64,000 nt of DNA, from positions 1,364,001 to 1,428,000 of the forward strand of contig NZ_JABEKS010000001.1 in NCBI RefSeq assembly GCF_012985205.1, read 5' to 3'. Origin of the DNA: Planctomonas sp. JC2975. Lineage in GTDB: Bacteria; Actinomycetota; Actinomycetes; Actinomycetales; Microbacteriaceae. The position numbers and the translations under genes were made by a program. This document shows, piece by piece, positions 6,898 through 39,840 of this stretch. Under the pieces are notes generated by a model, which saw only the letters and a list, made by a program, of their open reading frames with translations, ran no database searches and was not told the DNA's origin. Numbering within the stretch: position 1 is the stretch's first letter; the number at the start of each line of letters is the position of its first letter.

Positions 6898-7056
6898 ATG
6901 TGAAGCGATCACGCGACGGCCGACGTGCTCGGCGCCCGGATCCAGGCCATTCGCACGGTGCTCAACCCCTACAAGCACGCGCATCTGGGACCCGTCGCGG
7001 ATGCCTGGGCGGTCGTGCAGGAGGCGATGCGAGCGCGACAGCGGACCGAGCAGTGA
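6898..7056 (+). pseudogene. Short ORF with start codon followed directly by stop
   Basis: A good ribosome binding site (GAGAGGGAAG, 6887-6896) precedes ATG at 6898, but the next codon is TGA. Reading on in the same frame gives about 50 residues of plausible protein (SDHATADVLGARIQAIRT ... VADAWAVVQEAM) ending with TGA at 7054-7056, with a possible GTG restart at 6925. Either this is a small gene with a nonsense codon at position 2, or translation restarts at 6925 to give 43 residues. The family is not recognised. It lies 35 bp before cofD. Confidence 0.35.
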
Positions 7057-7091
7057 TCATCGGTTCCCGTGCCGTGCTGTTGACTTGTGCG

Positions 7092-8111
7092 GTGAGCGAG
7101 CTTCAGCGTGTGACAGTGTTGGCCGGCGGCGTCGGAGGCGCGCGATTCACCAGGGGGCTGCTCGCCCATCTGGAAGATGCCTACCCCGACGGCACGGGCG
7201 GCTCGCGCGTGGCCGTCACCGTCGTCGTCAACACGGGCGACGACATGACGCTGAACGGCCTCCGGGTCTGCCCCGACCTCGACACGGTGATGTACACCTT
7301 GGGCGGCGGGATCAGCGAGGAGCAGGGCTGGGGCCGCGATGACGAATCCCGCCGTGTGTCCGGCGAGATCGCGGCGTACGGGCGCGGCTGGGACTGGTTC
7401 ACCCTCGGCGACCTGGACCTCGGCACGCACATCGTGCGCACGGAACTGCTGCGCGACGGCGCGACGCTGAGCGAGGCGACGGAGTACCTGTGCAGGCGCT
7501 GGAAGCCGGCGGCACGCCTCCTGCCGATGAGCGACCAGCCAGTCGAGACCCAGGTGCGGGTGGGCGAGGCCGTTGACGAGCATCCGGCCGGCGCCCTCAT
7601 CCACTTCGAGGAGTGGTGGGTGCGGTATCGAGCCCACGTTCCGGCGACGGAGTTCGTGCAGCGGGGACTGGAGCAGGCCACGGCGGCTCCCGGCGTGATC
7701 GAGGCGATCCTCGACGCGGATGTCGTGATCCTGCCGCCCTCCAACCCGGTGGTGTCGGTCGGGACGATCCTCAACGTGCCGGGCATCCGCGACGCTGTGC
7801 GACAGACCGCGGCGCACGTCGTCGGCGTCTCGCCCATCATCGGAGGCGCGGCAGTGCGCGGAATGGCGGATGCCTGCCTCACCGTGATCGGCGTCGAGAC
7901 GTCCGCGCAGGGGGTCGGCCTGCACTACGGCGCGCGCCGCACGAAGTCAGCCGGTCTGATCGATGGCTGGCTCGTCGACGAGACCGACGCGGACGCCGTC
8001 CCTCACCTCGCTGAGGCGGGCATCCGTGCCCGCGCGGTTCCGTTGTGGATGCGCGACGTTCCGGCCACAGCGAGGATGGCCGCCGACGCCTTGGAGCTCG
8101 CCTTCGAGTGA
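7092..8111 (+). CDS. cofD: Phosphoenolpyruvyl/2-phospholactate transferase CofD (FbiA)
   Basis: A 339-residue enzyme of coenzyme F420 biosynthesis that transfers the (enol)phospholactate unit from its GDP-activated form to FO, giving (dehydro-)F420-0. The N-terminal nucleotide-binding motif VTVLAGGVGGARFTRGLL is typical, followed by VVNTGDDMTLNGLRVCPDLDTV and the ILPPSNPVVSVGTIL loop that binds the guanylate moiety. Length is normal. The start is uncertain: GTG 7092 and GTG 7110 are both in frame and neither has a clear ribosome binding site. The other F420 genes (fbiC, the cofE-cofC fusion) lie within 8 kb on both strands. Confidence 0.93.
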   Translation: MSELQRVTVLAGGVGGARFTRGLLAHLEDAYPDGTGGSRVAVTVVVNTGDDMTLNGLRVCPDLDTVMYTLGGGISEEQGWGRDDESRRVSGEIAAYGRGWDWFTLGDLDLGTHIVRTELLRDGATLSEATEYLCRRWKPAARLLPMSDQPVETQVRVGEAVDEHPAGALIHFEEWWVRYRAHVPATEFVQRGLEQATAAPGVIEAILDADVVILPPSNPVVSVGTILNVPGIRDAVRQTAAHVVGVSPIIGGAAVRGMADACLTVIGVETSAQGVGLHYGARRTKSAGLIDGWLVDETDADAVPHLAEAGIRARAVPLWMRDVPATARMAADALELAFE

Positions 8112-8232
8112 GACCGCTGCCACCGCCACCGTGCCAGCGTGACCGGCGTTCGCTGTGCGCGGAGTGCTGGTCGATGGCCCCACGATCCCGGGATGCCTCC
8201 CTAGGCTCAGCGAAGACCAAAGGAGAGCATCC

Positions 8233-8646
8233 ATGGCTGACCACTCGGGCTACAACCAGCCGATCATCGACGAGTTCCGTGCGACCGGCGGCACGGTCAC
8301 GCACTTCGGACGCAGCCTCGTGCTGCTCCACCACGTCGGGGCGAAGAGCGGACAGGAGCGCGTGACGCCTGTCGCCGCGCTGAAGTCGGGCCCGGATTCC
8401 TGGTTGGTGTCGGCCTCGAAGGCAGGAGCGCCCGAGCACCCCGCGTGGTTCCACAACCTGGTCGCGAATCCGGAGGTCGCGATCGAGACCCCGGACGACG
8501 GCGTCGTACCCGTGCACGCGACGGTGCAGCGAGGGCCGGATCACGACGCTGCATGGGCGGAGTTCACGGCGATCTATCCGAGCTTCTTGGACTATCAGGT
8601 CAAGACGAGCAGGGTCATCCCGATGGTGCGCCTGACGCGGCACTGA
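8233..8646 (+). CDS. Ddn-like nitroreductase-family deazaflavin protein
   Basis: A 137-residue member of the DUF385/Ddn family. The signature stretch is VLLHHVGAKSGQERVTPVAA followed by SKAGAPEHPAWFHNLVANPEV, the F420-binding face of the split barrel, and it ends with a VKTSRVIPMVRL strand. The ATG at 8233 is preceded by AGGAGAG (8221-8227). It is separated from cofD by 121 bp and from fbiC by about 125 bp, so it probably has its own promoter. The physiological substrate is unknown; quinone or electrophile reduction is the usual activity in this family. Confidence 0.87.
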   Translation: MADHSGYNQPIIDEFRATGGTVTHFGRSLVLLHHVGAKSGQERVTPVAALKSGPDSWLVSASKAGAPEHPAWFHNLVANPEVAIETPDDGVVPVHATVQRGPDHDAAWAEFTAIYPSFLDYQVKTSRVIPMVRLTRH

Positions 8647-8770
8647 ACGGCACGCGGCAGGCGCGGTCACCGGCGCGGGGCCGCGCCGCTAGGCTGGCGG
8701 CTGATCCGCTGTAAGGCCCGGGCTGTGGGCCGCATCCTCATTGTCACCGTCGTCCGTTCCGTCGCCGAGG

Positions 8771-11329
8771 ATGTCCGTGCCCGCCGAATTGCTCCCCGCC
8801 CCCGAGATCCGCTCCGCCACCAGGCCGTCAGTACCTGAAGACCCACGACCGACGGCGGATGCCATCGCCTCCGCGCTGACCCGTGCCCTGGTCGCGGCCG
8901 ATTCCGGCATCCCTCCCGAGATGGACGACGCCGAGACCCTGCTGTACGCACGCGATGCCCAGCTCGACGAACTGCTCGACCTGGCCGGTCGGCTGCGCGA
9001 CGCCGGACTCGACACCGCGGGTCGGCCGGGCGTCGTCACGTACTCGCGCAAGGTCTTCATCCCTCTGACCCACCTCTGCCAGGACCGCTGCCACTACTGC
9101 ATCTTCGTGCAGACCCCCGGCAAGCTCGCCAAGGCGGGAATCGCGCCGTTACTCTCCGAGGAGGAGGTGCTGGAGATCGCGCGGCAGGGCGCAGCGATGG
9201 GCTGCAAGGAGGCCCTGTTCACGCTCGGCGACCGTCCGGAGAACCGCTGGGCCGTCGCCAGAGAGTGGCTGGCGGACCACGGATACGCCTCGACCATCGA
9301 GTACATGCGGGCCATGGCGATCCGGGTGCTCGAGGAGACAGGGCTGCTCCCCCACCTCAACCCGGGCGTCATGTCGTGGGCCGAGCTGCAGCGCCTCAAG
9401 CCGGTCGCGCCATCCATGGGCATGATGCTCGAGACCACCTCGGTGCGGCTCTGGGCGGAGAAGGGGCAGGCGCACTTCGGCTCGCCCGACAAGGATCCTG
9501 CCGTGCGGCTGCGCGTGATCGACGACGCAGGTCGGTCGCAGATCCCGTTCACCACGGGCGTGCTGCTGGGCATCGGTGAGACCGTGCGCGACCGGGTCGA
9601 TGCGATGTTCGCATTGCGTGCGGCATCCGAGCGCTGGGAGCACGTGCAAGAGGTGATCGTGCAGAACTTCCGCGCCAAGGATGCGACGGCCATGATGCAT
9701 CACCCGGACCTCGCCGCCGACGAGTATGCGGCAGCTGTGGCGGTGACGCGGCTCGTTCTCGGAGCGGATGCTCGCATCCAGGCTCCCCCGAACCTCACCG
9801 ATCACGACGAGCTGGCCCTGCTCCTGCGCGCTGGCATCGACGACTGGGGCGGTGTCAGCCCGCTCACTCCGGATCACGTCAACCCCGAGCGTCCCTGGCC
9901 GCAGATCGACGAACTCGCACGGCTCACGGCGCGCGCCGGATACCGGCTGCACGAGCGTCTGACCACGCATCCCCACTTCGTGAGACGGGGCGAGCCCTGG
10001 ATCGATCCGGCGGTGCTGCCGCACACGCGCGCACTCGCGGACGCCGCGGGCCTCGCCGACGAGGCCGCGCCCGTCGTCGGACGGCCGTGGACACTCCAGA
10101 CGCCGGCAGCGGCGCCGGCAGCGCACCATCACGCCACCGCGAATGACGCGTCGGTGCCCACGCGCGACAGCGCCGGCAGCTTCCGCACGCTGCTGGAGGC
10201 TGCTCGACGCGATCCGTCTGGACTCGACGACACGGACTACATCGCGCTGCTGGACGCCGACGGCGCCGAGCTGGAGAGCCTCGCCGCGCTCGCCGACGAT
10301 ATTCGCCGAGAACGAGTCGGCGACGAGATCACCTATGTCGTGAACCGGAACATCGACGCGTCGCTGTTCCGCACAGCGGATGGCCTTCGTGAGGAACAAC
10401 GGGCACGCTCGGGAGGGGAGACGGGCACCGTCGAGCGGGGGAACGGGCACCCTCGTGAGGAGGAACGGGCACCCTCGGCGGAGGGCTTGGTGCTGACGGC
10501 CGAGGTCGTCAGCGCGCTGGCCGACGAGGCCGCGCGGCTGGGGGCCACGGAGGTCTGCGTGCAGGGGCGGATCGATGCGCGGATGCCGGCATCCGCGTAC
10601 GCAGACCTGGTGCGGGCCATCCACCTGAACCAGCCGCAGGTGCACGTGCACGCTTACCGGCCGATCGAGTTGCTGGACGGAGCCGCCCGGTCGGATATGC
10701 CACTGGCGGCATATCTCGCGAGCTTGCGGAACGCCGGCGTCGGGACGGTCCCTGGGACGGGCGCTCGAATTCTGGACGATCGGATCAGGGACATCCTCTC
10801 CGGCGGCACGGAGCTGCCGGTCGCCGAGTGGATCGTCACGATCGAGGCGGCCCATCGGGCGGGCCTGCGCTCGACGGCGACCATGGTTTACGGGCACATC
10901 GAGACGGCTGCGGATCAGGTGGCGCACCTGCGCACCCTCTCCGCAGTGCAGGGGCGAACGGGCGGGTTCACGGAATTCATCGCGATGCCGTTCGTGCCAC
11001 AGGACTCGCCGGTTGCCGTTCCAGGGGCGCGGCCGGGTCCGGACCTGCGGGAGTCGCGTGCCGTGCACGCCGTCGCCCGCCTCATGCTGGCCGGCACGAT
11101 CGACCACGTCCAGGCGGCGTGGACGAAGCTCGGTTTCCGAGGAACGCGTCTCGTGCTCGCCGGCGGCGTCGACGATCTCGGCGGCGTGCTGATCGACGGT
11201 GAACTCGCACCGTGGGCGGGACCGGAGCAGGGCCGCGTGCTGAGCGTGACGGACATGCGACGCATCGCGGACGAGGTCGGTCGTCCGCTCGCCCAGCGCA
11301 CGACGACGTACGAGCCGGTCGGACGATGA
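8771..11329 (+). CDS. fbiC: FbiC (FO synthase) with a degenerate CofH half
   Basis: An 852-residue two-domain radical-SAM protein that in actinobacteria makes FO, the F420 chromophore, from tyrosine and a flavin precursor. The CofG half is intact: the cluster motif is C103-QDR-C107-HY-C110, followed by GCKEALFTLGDRPE and a well conserved barrel through DDWGGVSPLTPDHVNPERPW. In the CofH half the conserved lead-in VVNRNI (to residue 528) is present, but the expected CxxxCxxC motif is absent. In its place is a low-complexity stretch (residues about 543-572) made by a 22-bp tandem repeat at 10399-10486. The only cysteine left in that half is in TEVCVQG. The rest of CofH continues recognisably (GRTGGFTEFIAMPFVPQ, VLAGGVDDLGG). 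The CofH reaction should not work. ATG 8771 overlaps a GAGG. It is coupled by ATGA overlap to the next gene. Confidence 0.88.
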   Translation: MSVPAELLPAPEIRSATRPSVPEDPRPTADAIASALTRALVAADSGIPPEMDDAETLLYARDAQLDELLDLAGRLRDAGLDTAGRPGVVTYSRKVFIPLTHLCQDRCHYCIFVQTPGKLAKAGIAPLLSEEEVLEIARQGAAMGCKEALFTLGDRPENRWAVAREWLADHGYASTIEYMRAMAIRVLEETGLLPHLNPGVMSWAELQRLKPVAPSMGMMLETTSVRLWAEKGQAHFGSPDKDPAVRLRVIDDAGRSQIPFTTGVLLGIGETVRDRVDAMFALRAASERWEHVQEVIVQNFRAKDATAMMHHPDLAADEYAAAVAVTRLVLGADARIQAPPNLTDHDELALLLRAGIDDWGGVSPLTPDHVNPERPWPQIDELARLTARAGYRLHERLTTHPHFVRRGEPWIDPAVLPHTRALADAAGLADEAAPVVGRPWTLQTPAAAPAAHHHATANDASVPTRDSAGSFRTLLEAARRDPSGLDDTDYIALLDADGAELESLAALADDIRRERVGDEITYVVNRNIDASLFRTADGLREEQRARSGGETGTVERGNGHPREEERAPSAEGLVLTAEVVSALADEAARLGATEVCVQGRIDARMPASAYADLVRAIHLNQPQVHVHAYRPIELLDGAARSDMPLAAYLASLRNAGVGTVPGTGARILDDRIRDILSGGTELPVAEWIVTIEAAHRAGLRSTATMVYGHIETAADQVAHLRTLSAVQGRTGGFTEFIAMPFVPQDSPVAVPGARPGPDLRESRAVHAVARLMLAGTIDHVQAAWTKLGFRGTRLVLAGGVDDLGGVLIDGELAPWAGPEQGRVLSVTDMRRIADEVGRPLAQRTTTYEPVGR
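10399..10486. repeat. 22-bp tandem repeat, four copies, inside fbiC
   Basis: Four units of exactly 22 bp begin at 10399, 10421, 10443 and 10465. Each starts with ACGGGCAC, continues (C/G)(C/G)TCG, and ends purine-rich (GGAGG-like). The period is not a multiple of three, so each unit is read in a different frame, which explains the low-complexity Arg/Glu/Gly-rich peptide. The array lies precisely where the CofH iron-sulfur motif is expected. Confidence 0.9.
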
Positions 11330-12828
11330 GCTCGGCCGAGGCGCGCACGGGCGAGGTCGTCGAGGTCGACACACTCATCGTCGGCGCCGGATTCGCGGGG
11401 CTCGGGCTCGGCATCCGATTGCGTCGACGGAACGCGCAAGAGGGCAGGGACGAGTCGTTTCTGATCCTCGAGCGGGCGCACGACGTCGGCGGCACCTGGC
11501 GCGACAACGTGTACCCGGGCGTCGCGTGCGACATCCCCTCGCACCTGTACTCGTTCTCGTTCCGCACCAGCGCCGAGTGGACGCACGTGTACCCGAGCGG
11601 GTGGGAGCTGCAGGAGTACCTGCGCCAGTGCGCGCGCGAGGAGGGCCTGCTGCCGCACCTCAGGTTCGGCGAGTCGGTCGAGGATGCGCGCTGGGACGAG
11701 GCCGACGGCCACTGGATCGTGACGACGACGGCCCGTCGACGGTATCGAGCGAAGAGCCTGGTGAGCGCGGTCGGCCGGCTCAGCGAGCCACGGCTGCCTG
11801 CCGCCGGCCGCCTGGACGGGTTCCCCGGCGCCGTGCTCCACACCGCCGGATGGGATGCCGACCTCGACCTGCACGGCGCGCGCGTCGGACTCGTCGGTAC
11901 CGGCGCATCCGCCGTGCAGGTGCTGCCGCATCTGCAGCGCGCCGCCGACCACGTCACGGTGTTCCAGCGCAGCGCGCCGTACGTCGTGCCGCGCGGCGAC
12001 CGCGCTTACACCGAGGCTGAGCGCGCAGAGCTGGCCGATCCGGCAGCAAGGGAGCGGCTGCGCGACATCCTGTTCTGGGATGCAGAGGCCGGCTTCCCCG
12101 CGCGAATGCGCGAGCCGGCCGCGATCGCCGCGCTGCGCGAGCGCGCAGCGTCTCACCTGCGTCGGCAGGTGAAGGATCCGGCGCTGCTCGCTGACCTCAC
12201 GCCTGACTACGAGATCGGCTGCAAGCGCGTGTTGCTGAGCGATGACTACTACCCGGCCGTCGCCTCGTCGAACGTGACGCTGGAGACCTCGGCCCTCGAC
12301 CGGATCGAGCACGGCACCGCCGTCGCGGAATCCGGCGCGCGGTACGACCTCGACGTGCTCGTCTTCGCCACCGGGTTCAACGCCACGCGGCCGCCCTTCG
12401 CCGATCTCGTGACGGGACGCCACGGCATCCGCCTCTCCGAGCACTGGTCGGACGGTATGCGAGCGTATGCCTCGACGGTCGTGCACGGGTTCCCGAACCT
12501 CTTCGTGCTCGACGGCCCGAACGCGAGTCTCGGGCACAACTCTGCCATCTACATGATCGAGACCCAGCTCGACTACGTGCTCGGGGCACTCGATCACCTT
12601 GCGGCCACCCGCATGCCCCTCGACGTGCCGCAGGACGCAGAGGATGCCTATGTCGCGGACATCGACGCCGCTGCCGCCGACTCGGTGTGGCTGAGCGGAT
12701 GCAGCAACTGGTACGTCGACGAGCGAAGCGGCCGCCTCACGCTGCTCTGGCCCGGATACGCGCACACGTTCCGCGACCGCGTCGGCACGTTCGATGCCGC
12801 GGTGTTCGGGGTGCCGGTCGCGGGATGA
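11326..12828 (+). CDS. Flavin-containing (Baeyer-Villiger type) monooxygenase
   Basis: A 500-residue FAD/NADPH monooxygenase. The FAD Rossmann motif is VGAGFAGLGLG near residue 19; HDVGGTWRDNVYPGVACDIPS and HLYSFSF are the typical BVMO/FMO stretches. The Baeyer-Villiger fingerprint appears as FPGAVLHTAGWD, and the NADPH Rossmann motif as GLVGTGASAVQ. It would insert oxygen into ketones or oxidise soft nucleophiles; the substrate is unknown. Its ATG overlaps the fbiC stop (ATGA at 11326-11329), so the two are translationally coupled. This is a curious pairing because BVMOs use flavin rather than F420. Confidence 0.87.
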   Translation: MSSAEARTGEVVEVDTLIVGAGFAGLGLGIRLRRRNAQEGRDESFLILERAHDVGGTWRDNVYPGVACDIPSHLYSFSFRTSAEWTHVYPSGWELQEYLRQCAREEGLLPHLRFGESVEDARWDEADGHWIVTTTARRRYRAKSLVSAVGRLSEPRLPAAGRLDGFPGAVLHTAGWDADLDLHGARVGLVGTGASAVQVLPHLQRAADHVTVFQRSAPYVVPRGDRAYTEAERAELADPAARERLRDILFWDAEAGFPARMREPAAIAALRERAASHLRRQVKDPALLADLTPDYEIGCKRVLLSDDYYPAVASSNVTLETSALDRIEHGTAVAESGARYDLDVLVFATGFNATRPPFADLVTGRHGIRLSEHWSDGMRAYASTVVHGFPNLFVLDGPNASLGHNSAIYMIETQLDYVLGALDHLAATRMPLDVPQDAEDAYVADIDAAAADSVWLSGCSNWYVDERSGRLTLLWPGYAHTFRDRVGTFDAAVFGVPVAG

Positions 12829-12914: not shown

Positions 12915-13736
12915 ATGCCCTTCGACCTCGACCAGCCCGTGAGCATCGGCGTGCAACTCGCGCCCCAGCACGCCGACTACGCCACGATCCGCGACACCGT
13001 CTTCCGTCTTGAAGACGCGGGCGTCGACGTGGTCTTCAACTGGGACCACTTCTTCCCGCTCTCCGGCGACCGTGACGGACTGCACTTCGAAGGCTGGACC
13101 ATGCTCGCAGCCTGGGCGGAGCAGACGGAGCGCATCCAATTCGGCCCTCTCGTCACGTGCAACAGCTACCGCAACCCCGATCTGCTCGCCGACATGGCCC
13201 GCACCGTCGACCACATCAGCGCGCAGGACGGACCGGACGGATCGCCCGCGCAGGGCAGGCTGATCTTCGGCATCGGATCGGGCTGGGCGCACCGCGACTA
13301 CGACGCGTACGGGTACGACTTCGGCACGGTGGGATCCCGGCTGGACGACCTTGCAGAGGCGATGCCGCGCATCCGCCGCAGATGGGAGGTGCTCAACCCG
13401 GTGCCGACCCGCAGCATCCCCGTGCTCATCGGTGGTGGCGGCGAACGCAAGACGCTGCGCATCGTGGCCGAGCATGCGGATATCTGGCACAGCTTCTCCG
13501 ACGCGCACACCCTCGAGCGCAAGCTCGGCATCCTCGACGAGTGGTGCAGTCGGGTGGGGCGCGACGCGTCCGAGATCACGGTCTCGGTCGAGCCCGGCCG
13601 TGGAGAGGGCACGGCGGCCTACGACGAATTCCACGCCCTCGGCGCCCGCCTCTTCACCACGCAGATCACGGCTCCCGACTACGACTGGGACCGCGTGCAC
13701 CGCCTGCTCGCCTGGCGAGACGCCGTGAACGGCTAG
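12915..13736 (+). CDS. LLM-class F420-dependent oxidoreductase
   Basis: A 273-residue luciferase-like TIM-barrel oxidoreductase. The N-terminus [20 protein letters not shown] and the [14 protein letters not shown] loop match actinobacterial F420 LLM enzymes; the cofactor-phosphate segment is [20 protein letters not shown], and later [22 protein letters not shown]. The substrate is unknown. ATG 12915 follows GGGAGAA. Its stop codon overlaps that of the opposing cofE-cofC gene: the CTAG at 13733-13736 serves both strands, so no terminator separates them. Confidence 0.87.
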
Positions 13737-15337
13737 ATGCCGCGGCCGAGCAGCTGCTGCGTCGCACGCCCGAGGCGGTCGGCGGATCCGCGAAGGGTCG
13801 CGACGTCGTCGATGTCCAGGCGCAGCGAGGACCCGGGCGGCACGGTCAACTCCTGATACCCGGCGTCGGCGTGATGCGCGCGGGAATCACGTCCGAAGCG
13901 CGACGACACGGCCGCGCCCGGCGCAGCCGTGATCGCCGTCGTGCCCGTTCCGTCGTGGTCGGCGACGAACGCGTACGGATGCCCGCACCGCGCCGCCTCC
14001 ACCGCGAGGCCGAGAGCAGCGTCGAGGTCGTCGGGCAGAAGCGCCGGCAGGTCGCCGACGAGCACGGCCACGAACGTCCCTGGGTGCGCCGTTCGAGCCG
14101 CTGAAACCCCGGCCGCCACGGCAGCGTTCAGGCCCATCGCCGGATCCGGAACGACGGAGTCGACGAGCACGCCGAGAGCGTCGGAGAGCCCGGGTTCACT
14201 CGACACAACGACCACGGAGTCCACCGACCGCGACGCACGCACGGCCCGCAGCGTATCCGTCAAGAACGCCGCGGACAGCAGACGCCGGTCGACACCGGGT
14301 TCGGCGGCGAACCGCGACTTGGCGCCGACGCCGCCCTTGAACGGCACGACGACGGTCCAGCGCGGTTCGTCGCCGCGCGCAAGGGCGACGCCTGCGGCGA
14401 ATCCGTGCCGGTATCCGTCGGCGAGCGCCTCGTCCGTTCCGAGGCGGAACATGTCGCCCGGTCCCGTTCGGGTGAGGGAGCGACCGGTCAGGAACGGGTC
14501 GGCGTTCTGGTGAGGGATGGCGGCTCGGACCGCGCCGTCGCCGTTCGACGCGCTCCGACCATCCGACTCCCCGTCGCCACCGGACTCGCCACGCTCGCTG
14601 AGGGAGCTCGGGGTGGACGCGGAGGTCGTGACGAAGCGCACCGCGCCGCGGACGACGGCGACGGGGCATCCGCTCGCCTTGCCCTTGACGAGGTCGCCCA
14701 GCCCGGCGAGCTCGTCGCCCACTGCCGGCTGCGTGACGGTCAGAGGGCGGCCGGCGGCATCCGTCTGTCCTCGTAGGTCGTCGACCACGCGGACGCCTGA
14801 CGCACCGATCGCGATGTCCGTCTGGCCGATGCGCCAGGCGCGTCCAAGTGTGTCGCTGACGATCACGCCGACCTCGACGCGGAATCGCTCCGTGAAGGCG
14901 TCGCGGAGCGCTTGCGCCGAGGCATCCGGATCTTCCGGGAGCAGCAGCACGCTGCCCTCTACGACGTTGCTCGCGTCGACACCTGCAGCTGCCCCGACGA
15001 CGCCCTGACGGTTCTCGACGATGCGCGTCAGGCCACCGTCATAGGCGCGGGTTGCGACGACTCGGACCGTCTCATCGGTGATCGCCTGTTCGCGGTCGTC
15101 TGCGGCGACCAGGCGTCCCTCCGCCTTCGACACGATCTTGCTCGTGACGACGAGGATGTCGCCGCCCAGCAGCGCACGGTCCGGGTGGGCAACGGCGTCC
15201 GCACTCAGCGCGTCGCCGATCACGGCGGCGAGATCGGTGCCGGGCACGATCTCGGGGATGCCGGGCACCGCCCAGGCGGCGATCGGACCTGGCGCCTCGA
15301 CGTGATCGTGCTCCTGCCTCGTGCCGGCCTCCGTCAT
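13733..15337 (-). CDS. cofE: CofE-CofC fusion (F420 glutamate ligase + phospholactate guanylyltransferase)
   Basis: A 534-residue protein joining two F420 enzymes. Residues about 15-260 are CofE, the F420-0:gamma-glutamyl ligase: [14 protein letters not shown] (GTP/metal site), [16 protein letters not shown] and [20 protein letters not shown] are all present. Residues about 330-534 are CofC/FbiD, the nucleotidyltransferase that makes the GDP-linked phospho(enol)lactate donor: [29 protein letters not shown] and the DGTGTTAI metal-binding strand. A Ser/Gly/Asp-rich linker of about 60 residues joins them. In mycobacteria CofE is instead fused to a nitroreductase domain and CofC is separate, so this arrangement differs. 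ATG 15337 overlaps the upstream gene's TGA, indicating coupling. Confidence 0.9.
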
Positions 15338-16341
15338 CGGTGGAGCGCGGGCAGCACGTCGCGCCCGAAGACCTCGATCCACTCCCGCTGGTTGCGGCCG
15401 ACGTTGTGCAGGTACACCCGGTCGAAACCGAGGTCGACGTACTTCTGGATGGCGGCGCGATGCACGTCGGGGTCGCTGGAGATGACCATGCGGCCCTCGA
15501 AGTCCTCAGGTCGAACGAGCTTGGCAATCTGCTCGAACTCGAACGGCGAGCGGATGTCGGCCTTCGGGAACTTCATGCCGCCGTTCGGCCACTCGCGCAC
15601 AGCGTTCGCCAACGCCTCCTCGTCGGTGGGCGCCCAGCTGAGGTGCAACTGCAGAACGCGAGGCGCGTCATCCGGATTCCTGCCGGCATCACGCTGTCCC
15701 TCGTCGAACTTGGCGAAGAGGCCGCTGATCTTCTCCAGCGGCGCGCCGACCGTGATCAGGCCGTCGACGGTCTGTCCGGCGCGCTTCGCCGTGACCGGAC
15801 CAGCCGTCGCGATGAGGATCTCCGGAGCCTGCTCCGGCATGGTCCACAGCCTGGTGGACTCGAGCTTGAAGAATTGCCCGGAGTGCTTGGTGTCACGCCC
15901 GGCCAGCGAGGCCGAGAACAGCTTCTTGATGATGTCGATGGCCTCGAACATGCGGTTGATGCGCTCGGGCGCCTCCGGCCAGTAGGCGCCGACGATGTGC
16001 TCGTTGAGCGCCTCGCCGGATCCCAGCCCGAGCCACGTGCGGCCCGGATACATAGCAGCCAGCGTTGCCGCCGCCTGCGCCACGATCGCCGGATGGAAGC
16101 GGAAGCTCGGCGTCGTGACGCCCGGCCCCAGATCGCCCTTCGTGCGCTCGCCGAGCGCTGTGAGCACGTTCCAGACGAAGGATGCCTGCCCTTGGGTCGG
16201 CACCCACGGCTGGAAGTGGTCAGCGGCCATCACCCCCGAGAAGCCGTGCTGTTCCGCGTGCGCGCTCAGTTCGACGACCTCCATCGGGGCGAACTGCTCG
16301 AGCATCGCGGCGTATCCCACCTGGAGTTCACGCGTAGCCAT
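15334..16341 (-). CDS. F420-dependent dehydrogenase of the Fgd (G6PDH) family
   Basis: A 335-residue LLM protein very like mycobacterial Fgd1. The active-site loop ADHFQPW carries the catalytic His and the stacking Trp; [11 protein letters not shown] carries the Glu equivalent to Glu109 of Fgd1. It also has the [20 protein letters not shown] segment. Fgd oxidises glucose-6-phosphate to make F420H2, but several relatives use other alcohols or sugars, so the substrate is only probable. It is the first gene of a two-gene unit with cofE-cofC (ATGA overlap at 15334-15337), which places F420 reduction and F420 synthesis under one promoter. Confidence 0.85.
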
Positions 16342-17733: not shown

Positions 17734-17841
17734 TGTTCCGGTGGGTATGGAGGTTCCACTCGCTCGGCGACGCGGCCCTGCCGGGGCCTGCTGCGTCGCG
17801 CGCAGCCCCACGCCAGGGGATACGCCGCTAACGTGCAGTCC

Positions 17842-18696
17842 ATGGACATCGGCTTCCACATCGCGAACTTCACCTGGGACGTTCCGGAGAACCTTCTCGC
17901 TGCCACATTCGCCCGCGCGGCGCGCGAGGCAGAGGCATCCGGCATCAAGCGCATCACGGTCATGGACCATTTCTGGCAGATCGGCAACATCGGGACTCCC
18001 GAGAAGCCGATGCTCGAGGGCTACACGGCCCTCGGCTTCCTGGCGTCGCACACCACGAAGGTGCTGCTGCACACACTGGTTACGGGCGTCATCTACCGTG
18101 AGCCTGGGATCCTCGCCAAGCAGATCTCCACACTAGACGTGCTCTCCGGCGGTCGGGCAGGACTCGGCATCGGCGCCGGCTGGAACGAGGAGGAGTCCAA
18201 GGGCCTCGGCATCCCGTTCCCTCCGACGAAGGAACGCTTCGAGCGCTTGGAGGAGGCCCTCCAGATCTGCCTGCAGATGTGGAGCGATGACGAGGGTCCG
18301 TACGACGGATCGCACTATCACCTCGGCCGCACCCTCAACTCGCCCCAGCCGCTCTCCAAGCCTCGCCCGTATCTGATGATCGGCGGCGTCGGCGAGCAGA
18401 AGACCCTGCGCTACGTCGCGCGATATGCGGATGCCTGCAACATCTTCGGCTCCCCCGATGCCGCCCACAAACTCGACGTGCTGCGGCACTGGTGCGATGT
18501 CGAGGGTCGCGACTACGACACCGTCGAGAAGACCACTACGACGGCGATCACGCCGGACACCGACTTCGACGAGTTCGTCGGGCGCCTCGAGGCGCTGCGC
18601 GAATTGGGGTTCACCGCCGCCTATGTGTCGGCGCGCACGCCGGATCCTCTCCACGCAGTGGAGTTCTTGGGACGAGTCGCAGAGAAGGTTGCATAA
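17842..18696 (+). CDS. LLM-class F420-dependent oxidoreductase
   Basis: A 284-residue TIM-barrel LLM enzyme. It begins MDIGFHIANFTWDVPENLLAA, then ITVMDHFWQIGNIGTPEKPMLEG at the active site, LSGGRAGLGIGAGWNEEESKGLGIPFPP for the F420 phosphate and tail, and later PYLMIGGVGEQKTLRYVARYAD. Its substrate is unknown. ATG 17842 is chosen because a TAACGT -10 box (17828-17833) lies eight bases before it, suggesting a leaderless transcript; an in-frame GTG at 17833 overlaps that box. The next gene starts two bases after its stop, so they form an operon. Confidence 0.87.
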   Translation: MDIGFHIANFTWDVPENLLAATFARAAREAEASGIKRITVMDHFWQIGNIGTPEKPMLEGYTALGFLASHTTKVLLHTLVTGVIYREPGILAKQISTLDVLSGGRAGLGIGAGWNEEESKGLGIPFPPTKERFERLEEALQICLQMWSDDEGPYDGSHYHLGRTLNSPQPLSKPRPYLMIGGVGEQKTLRYVARYADACNIFGSPDAAHKLDVLRHWCDVEGRDYDTVEKTTTTAITPDTDFDEFVGRLEALRELGFTAAYVSARTPDPLHAVEFLGRVAEKVA

Positions 18697-38320: not shown

Positions 38321-38396
38321 GGCTACTCGGGTTACTCGGGTTACTCGGGCTACTCGGGCTACTCGGGCTTCGGGCTACTCGGGCTACTCGGGCTAC
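38321..38396. repeat. 9-bp tandem repeat between convergent genes
   Basis: Seven full units of GG(C/T)TACTCG, one shortened 7-bp unit (GGCTTCG, 38366-38372) and a partial last unit fill the space between gntR and the amidohydrolase gene. The last unit contains the amidohydrolase stop codon (CTA on this strand, 38393-38395). Such arrays change copy number by slippage. Confidence 0.92.
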
Positions 38397-39660: not shown

Positions 39661-39753
39661 CCTCATCGCCCGTTTTCAGGACATGCGGCGGGATGTCCCG
39701 ACTGTGCGGGCATGTCGCCGCATGTCCTGAAAACGGGCGGAAGGGATGAGGAG
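39661..39753. repeat. Long near-perfect hairpin with GTTTTC/GAAAAC arms
   Basis: Perfect 22-bp arms (39669-39690 and 39716-39737) begin CCCGTTTTCAGGACATG. A looser inner stem (ATG-CCCG on both sides) continues inwards, and outside the arms CCTCATC pairs with GATGAGG after a bulge. The element lies between ridA (upstream) and the amidohydrolase on the minus strand. It could terminate ridA transcription or be a mobile REP-like palindrome; no T-run is present. Confidence 0.8.
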
Positions 39754-39840
39754 AGGGACGGCGGACGGGATGAGGGGCGGTACATCGGCCGGGGTGAGGA
39801 CCGGGACAGCGGACGGGGTGAGGATCAGTGCAGCGGCCGA
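39745..39840. repeat. 24-bp tandem repeat, four copies
   Basis: Four 24-bp units begin at 39745, 39769, 39793 and 39817, each starting G(A/G)TGAGG and mostly ending CGGCGGACGG or similar. The array directly follows the hairpin and ends 42 bp from the ridA stop. Its period is a multiple of three and one frame is open, but there is no ribosome binding site. Confidence 0.85.

Follow-up and report, generated by a model that had tools for sequence, protein, structure and literature searches.

The fbiC gene in a 64,000-nucleotide stretch of the Planctomonas sp. JC2975 genome (positions 1364001 to 1428000 of contig C1 of genome G000; hereafter the window) encodes an intact CofG half followed by a CofH half that has lost its iron-sulfur cluster motif. 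This half is dead as a radical-S-adenosylmethionine (SAM) enzyme yet conserved, and the gene directly downstream encodes a flavin monooxygenase (FMO). We propose that the preserved CofH half (here pseudo-CofH) and the O2-using flavin enzyme suggest an unrecognised oxygen-dependent route to coenzyme F420. As outlined in passages of a 2021 review, all studied F420 producers make the deazaflavin FO (7,8-didemethyl-8-hydroxy-5-deazariboflavin) by a universal mechanism that uses two SAM-radical domain enzymes (PMC8498797). A second, O2-dependent FO route would, if true, break this two-domain view. To our knowledge, a widespread FbiC whose CofH half is dead yet conserved and goes together with an O2-using flavoenzyme would be the first exception. 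If true, it would also show how aerobic actinobacteria could dodge one oxygen-sensitive step, supply a candidate aerobic F420 route for biotechnology, and give an example of a radical-SAM enzyme retained after cluster loss. FO production by FbiC in Escherichia coli is reported to be favoured under oxygen limitation (PMC11917521). Among the titles and abstract openings listed for open-licence articles in PMC, a scope that leaves subscription journals and preprints outside, we found neither a link between FbiC or FO synthesis and a monooxygenase nor a motif-less FbiC.

The CofH half has lost radical-SAM chemistry and is conserved

The fbiC frame is open through position 11329, with an uncertain start (TTG at 8741 or ATG at 8771). 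The product scores 488.2 bits with TIGR03550 and passes the NCBI equivalog model NF006687 (1059.6 bits; cut-off, 1018). The cut-off is blind to the missing CxxxCxxC motif of CofH, and because the window protein passes it, proteins of this kind may carry an ordinary CofGH annotation. Under the CofH model TIGR03551 (cut-off, 374.1 bits), the CofH stretch alone falls short with 300.1 bits, and the whole product, matched in four stretches, lands just above with 376.8 bits. Compared with FbiC/CofGH proteins as defined by NF006687, the window gene is alike in domain order, the intact CofG half, the CofH-like barrel and the F420 gene neighbourhood; it differs in having a CofH half without the CxxxCxxC, GG and AE motifs, and nearly all loci of its type differ further by an FMO neighbour.

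The preliminary description of this DNA correctly reported that the CofG half keeps its CxxxCxxC motif (CQDRCHYC, 9077 to 9100) and that the CofH half has none past the residues VVNRNI, which are located at 10337 to 10354 and not, as given there, at 10340 to 10357. It also called for an alignment to look for a cysteine motif displaced elsewhere. No such motif, looser spacings included, occurs in the 78 degenerate CofH halves that we aligned; a displaced functional motif is rejected, as 69 of the 78 hold a single cysteine and C596 is common to intact rows. Two residues shared with MqnE in a profile alignment, G600 and E666, are retained in fewer than 10% of the degenerate rows, and position 666 has instead become basic in 73 of the 78 (Arg in 59, Lys in 14). 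With the cluster motif and these SAM-site residues gone, the claim that this half should be incapable of radical-SAM catalysis holds.

The degenerate half is nonetheless maintained. Across 20 pairs, median ratios of nonsynonymous to synonymous substitution rates (dN/dS) were 0.05 for CofG, 0.14 for pseudo-CofH (gap excluded) and 0.16 for the FMO, by a simple Nei-Gojobori count on chosen pairs, one of which (L098/L148) entered with a mis-cut CofH slice of 701 codons. The low value of 0.14 indicates that pseudo-CofH is under purifying selection. An AlphaFold2 model reached a mean predicted local distance difference test score (pLDDT) of 92.1 and a predicted template modelling (TM) score of 0.90, with stretches below 50 pLDDT confined to a loop formed by a short tandem repeat (see below). 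The best solved match to the predicted barrel is MqnE (6xig/6xi9; TM score, 0.72 to 0.75; root mean square deviation, 5.4 to 6.5 Å), and pseudo-CofH is thus predicted to have an MqnE-like fold of the radical-SAM type. It resembles the CofH/MqnE/MqnC family in this barrel and in many retained family residues, and differs from it in having no cluster motif. Judged from its residues, the CofH half can no longer act as a radical-SAM enzyme and is not decaying: motif loss and conservation show that the barrel, its fold as predicted, has lost [4Fe-4S]/SAM chemistry for good and is kept as a working part.

The degenerate type is widespread

Among 398 genomes of the family (Microbacteriaceae), 93 had a CofH match at E <= 1e-40 (one per genome), and the CofG half exceeded its cut-off in every one of them. 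The CofH scores were bimodal, with 25 matches at 508 to 527 bits and 68 at 147 to 338 bits. Reading all 93 loci gave 26 intact loci and 67 without the CofH motif; one low scorer (L142) is clipped by a contig end, yet intact (CYTGCRFC). Frames are split or broken at 4 of the 67 motif-less loci (L096, L100, L145 and L147). The motif is absent from all five genomes of the same genus (G000 to G004; Humibacter by inference). A further set of named species, comprising the best 80 of 412 relatives and partly repeating the species of the family set, contained 39 degenerate and 41 intact loci and extended the degenerate type to Promicromonospora, Nocardioides, Tsukamurella, Kineococcus, Nesterenkonia, Nocardia and Arthrobacter. 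A phylum-wide CofH search matched at least 240 of 396 genomes, with scores that mix in other CofH-like families.

In a tree of CofG halves (78 degenerate and 58 intact rows), one branch parts the two types with a Shimodaira-Hasegawa-like approximate likelihood ratio test (SH-aLRT) value of 99, which fits a single origin of the degenerate FbiC and later spread. Like the other tree below, it was built by a quick method with no bootstrap; seven loci whose genes are broken, split or cut were left out, as were rows shorter than 650 residues or identical across the first 500. Two records, an "Acidobacteriaceae" metagenome-assembled genome (L157) and a "Bacillus sp." (L213), carry FbiC proteins that fall inside actinobacterial branches and are probably misbinned or mislabelled.

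A flavin monooxygenase gene accompanies the degenerate half

When neighbouring genes were clustered, one class, the FMO, was present at 34/34 of the degenerate loci first fetched and at 0/7 intact ones. The gene follows fbiC within 0.9 kb and in the same orientation at 65 of the 67 degenerate family loci (0 of 26 intact), and it occurs at 39/39 degenerate and 0/41 intact loci of the named set. After removal of duplicates, 83 of 85 degenerate loci have an FMO start in the first 1 kb past fbiC, as do none of 61 intact loci, of which 57 show at least 1 kb and 35 at least 5 kb of downstream sequence (less than 1 kb at L142, a contig edge, and at L211, L196 and L206; less than 5 kb at 26). At one of the two degenerate loci without FMO, L139, the sequence stops 61 bases past fbiC; the other is taken up below. 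In the window, the FMO start codon overlaps the fbiC stop (ATGA).

The association also holds when CofG and CofH are encoded separately. In G157, the FMO follows pseudo-CofH and CofG is on a different contig; Nocardia aurantiaca (L201) has a stand-alone pseudo-CofH with an FMO and no CofG within 6 kb; and in Kineococcus rubinsiae the FMO again follows pseudo-CofH, with CofG just past it on the opposite strand.

The best solved matches of the FMO are steroid and phenylacetone monooxygenases. The window protein carries the Rossmann motifs for FAD and NADP and both fingerprints of Baeyer-Villiger monooxygenases (BVMOs), and key positions of all of these and of the motif GCKR are retained in at least 90% of the 83 linked FMOs. 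The protein is thereby like type I BVMOs such as phenylacetone, steroid and cyclohexanone monooxygenase, and it differs from them in forming its own branch against six sampled paralogs and in its tie to pseudo-CofH. We regard it as a putative NADPH- and O2-dependent enzyme of the Baeyer-Villiger type.

F420 genes and the search for a second CofH

F420 genes are clustered in the window, where fbiC is joined by CofD, three F420-type oxidoreductases and a protein that fuses CofE with CofC (Table 1). Mycobacterial FbiB is described, in passages of the review cited above, as a fusion of CofE with a nitroreductase (PMC8498797), whereas the window fusion joins CofE and CofC. CofD and CofE were found in all 24 degenerate and all 5 intact genomes tested.

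Table 1. Coordinates of features in the window
Feature	Position	Strand	Basis
cofD/fbiA, 2-phospho-L-lactate transferase	6924..8111	+	profile
F420H2-dependent quinone reductase/deazaflavin-dependent nitroreductase family	8155..8646	+	profile
fbiC, CofG half and degenerate CofH half	8771..11329	+	NF006687, TIGR03550
CofG cluster motif CQDRCHYC, intact	9077..9100	+	sequence
VVNRNI, last conserved residues before the absent CofH CxxxCxxC	10337..10354	+	sequence
Array of four imperfect 22-bp copies where the CofH cluster motif is absent; member of a dispersed repeat family	10398..10481	+	Tandem Repeats Finder
Codon 600, Arg for the second Gly in QGGI, whose GG aligns with MqnE	10568..10570	+	alignment
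Codon 630, Arg in 78/78 degenerate rows (among 58 intact rows, Ser in at least 95%)	10658..10660	+	alignment
Codon 666, Arg replacing Glu of PGTAAEIL	10766..10768	+	alignment
FMO, type I Baeyer-Villiger-type FAD monooxygenase (putative)	11326..12828	+	sequence match, motifs
LLM-class F420-dependent oxidoreductase	12915..13736	+	TIGR03856 above cut-off
CofE-CofC fusion	13733..15382	-	CofE 202.8 bits (cut-off 180.65), CofC 104.8 (cut-off 105)
LLM-class F420-dependent oxidoreductase	17833..18696	+	TIGR03560 above cut-off

It had been suggested that FO might be made with a second CofH encoded elsewhere. A CofH profile search of the window's own genome at E <= 1, which covered relatives of that profile only, returned no second CofH: fbiC was accompanied by one weak match, at C1:1979539, in a frame that we take to be MoaA-like. 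A second CofH in this genome is therefore rejected as a candidate. Nine of ten named degenerate genomes likewise gave no second CofH at E <= 1e-20; the tenth, that of N. aurantiaca, has an intact CofH elsewhere beside its locus of pseudo-CofH and FMO.

Eleven family genomes that lack CofG/CofH were tested for the later steps: CofD is present in 3 of them, and PF01996 is matched in 5, once weakly. Three genomes, G010, G020 and G025, hold both CofD and CofE with no CofG/CofH at the thresholds used, and are possible FO scavengers or users of yet another FO route.

Proposed replacement of the CofH step

CofG takes the product of CofH in the mechanism as reviewed, at least in the passages concerned (PMC8498797); because CofG is also strongly conserved here, the CofH product is probably still formed in carriers of pseudo-CofH. 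By position and distribution, the FMO is the gene that fits the vacancy. On balance we favour the reading that pseudo-CofH and the FMO together replace the radical-SAM step that CofH performs when FbiC makes FO from tyrosine and 5-amino-6-ribitylaminouracil. Linkage and gene content point to a scheme in which the FMO would take over the chemistry of this step, with an alpha/beta-hydrolase in some lineages, the intact CofG half would complete FO, and CofD and CofE/CofC would convert FO to F420.

A chemical course can be sketched for the exchange. Known phenylacetone monooxygenase converts phenylacetone to benzyl acetate, as noted in part of one source (PMC3404926), and a cascade of a BVMO and an esterase is described in part of another (PMC10840651). 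The FMO, using NADPH and O2, could insert oxygen beside the benzylic carbon of a carbonyl compound derived from tyrosine, candidates being 4-hydroxyphenylpyruvate and 4-hydroxyphenylacetaldehyde, to give a 4-hydroxybenzyl ester. Such an ester would readily yield a p-quinone methide. Once elimination had produced it, the quinone methide would be attacked by C5 of 5-amino-6-ribitylaminouracil held in the old CofH barrel, giving an adduct identical to that of the radical CofH; the two new basic residues at positions 630 and 666 could bind an anionic donor. The ester and quinone-methide details are doubtful and are offered as one way in which the step might run. A little firmer, though still short of an even bet, is the broader proposal of a second, O2-dependent FO route, in which a BVMO-type enzyme makes a quinone-methide donor and a cluster-less former radical-SAM protein templates the coupling.

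Pairs of O2-dependent and radical-SAM enzymes for one step are known from HemF/HemN and AcsF/BchE. The FbiC case would share their logic, an oxygen-sensitive radical-SAM step being swapped for an O2-using enzyme, and would differ from them in keeping the former radical-SAM barrel, now devoid of a cluster.

Points against the replacement and rival explanations

Several observations weigh against a replacement by the FMO. The first concerns independence: with a single branch of the CofG tree (SH-aLRT 99) separating the types, the co-occurrence of variant and FMO may be one event and does not represent many independent ones. In partial Mantel tests, FMO distances track CofG (partial r = 0.55) above pseudo-CofH (0.27), and special coevolution of FMO and pseudo-CofH is therefore not shown. 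BVMO relatives are not confined to degenerate genomes either. A genome-wide check of 46 genomes (9 degenerate, 26 intact and 11 without fbiC) found an unlinked relative with 39 to 47% identity in 4 of the 26 intact genomes, and at the intact locus L219 a 33% relative, below our 250-bit counting line, lies about 4 kb off. One degenerate genome (G079) holds a second FMO copy. In a tree that drew long-branch warnings, a single branch (SH-aLRT 99) sets these six paralogs apart from the 83 linked FMOs. Finally, the degenerate locus L145 (G199) has no FMO in the 5 kb downstream, though its fbiC is itself broken. That gene combines a truncated CofH half with a TAG inside the CofG match, a possible case of joint loss of fbiC and FMO.

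The hydrolase also counts against the scheme in part. The gap between fbiC and FMO is at least 350 bp at 29 family loci, and an alpha/beta-hydrolase-like gene fills it at 27 of these; with eight queries drawn from eight of the 29 loci, no such gene was found at the other 36 degenerate family loci or at intact loci. It is thus present at only 27 of 65. At L115 and other Agreia loci the gene is shortened, and at L115 it has no Pfam match, as if the Agreia hydrolase were turning into a non-catalytic remnant. Given this patchy presence and erosion, the hydrolase is not essential to the proposed scheme.

Among other explanations, the one that survives best, though we think it improbable, is that the product of CofG, pseudo-CofH and FMO is a deazaflavin different from FO, built for instance from another aromatic precursor and used by the F420-type enzymes. 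The substrate may indeed have changed, as pseudo-CofH has lost some residues and fixed new ones (Arg630 in 78/78 rows, Arg or Lys at 666 in 73/78); against this, the CofG half passes its cut-off in 93/93 genomes, and CofD and CofE are of the standard families. Slightly less credible still is that the FMO is a mere neighbour and that an unlinked enzyme, such as an unrelated radical-SAM or tyrosine-lyase-type protein, supplies the CofH product. Such an enzyme could do so, as our genome-wide search covered relatives of the CofH profile only, and one loss event could have brought a passenger gene along; a passenger would, however, hardly be expected to be retained at 83 of 85 loci over many genera and several families, or to stay with pseudo-CofH after the genes had separated.

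We give even less credence to decay, in which FO synthesis is gone and the cells either scavenge FO or F420 or have stopped using it. FO uptake may exist, because CofD and CofE occur together in 3 of the 11 family genomes tested that lack CofG/CofH; the G199 fbiC, moreover, is broken. Yet both halves have low dN/dS, the fold is predicted with high confidence, and the variant occurs in 67 of 398 family genomes and in Promicromonospora, Nocardioides, Tsukamurella, Kineococcus, Arthrobacter and others. The loss of F420 synthesis envisaged in the preliminary description is for these reasons unlikely, with CofG, pseudo-CofH, CofD and CofE/CofC all retained and the first two under purifying selection. 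Its other suggestion, a half-protein limited to the CofG step, may be half right; it leaves aside the conservation of the CofH half and its tie to an oxygenase gene. Replacement of the CofH step by pseudo-CofH and FMO remains the reading that we prefer.

A tandem repeat occupies the gap left by the motif

The CofH frame of the window does contain an array of four 22-bp repeats (starts at 10399, 10421, 10443 and 10465), as had been noticed, but the copies are not exact: they agree pairwise at 16 to 18 of 22 positions, and Tandem Repeats Finder (TRF) reports 77% matches. The unit has 126 matches across G000, against 5 for a reversed-pattern control, and so the array is not a chance product and belongs to a dispersed repeat family. 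The other four same-genus genomes have 6 to 10 unit matches each (controls, 0 to 3), which marks the window array as a member of a family expanded in G000. The family consensus is near GAACGGGCACCCTCGGGAGGG (for example, at C1:2347185, C1:2421517, C3:213515 and C4:87529), and a tally by eye gives about 30 repeat sites in G000.

The motif was not lost to the repeat. G001, G003 and G004 have only a short replacement at the motif site, with no repeat and no CofH motif, and 62 further family loci, from other genera, are motif-less as well, which excludes the repeat as the cause and makes the loss older and family-wide. In G002, where the motif is also gone, a diverged array-like insert lies at the same place (judged by eye); TRF gives nothing for it at score 30. 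The repeat evidently sits in the gap left by an earlier motif loss. That it replaced the motif in this strain alone, through an assembly error or strain accident, has next to no probability: the array is truly present and stems from an expanded family, and the relatives, motif-less in all five Humibacter genomes and with an insert at the same place in G002, already refute it. Further TRF arrays in the window lie at 38321 to 38396 and 39737 to 39839, with 9-bp (GGCTACTCG) and 24-bp units.

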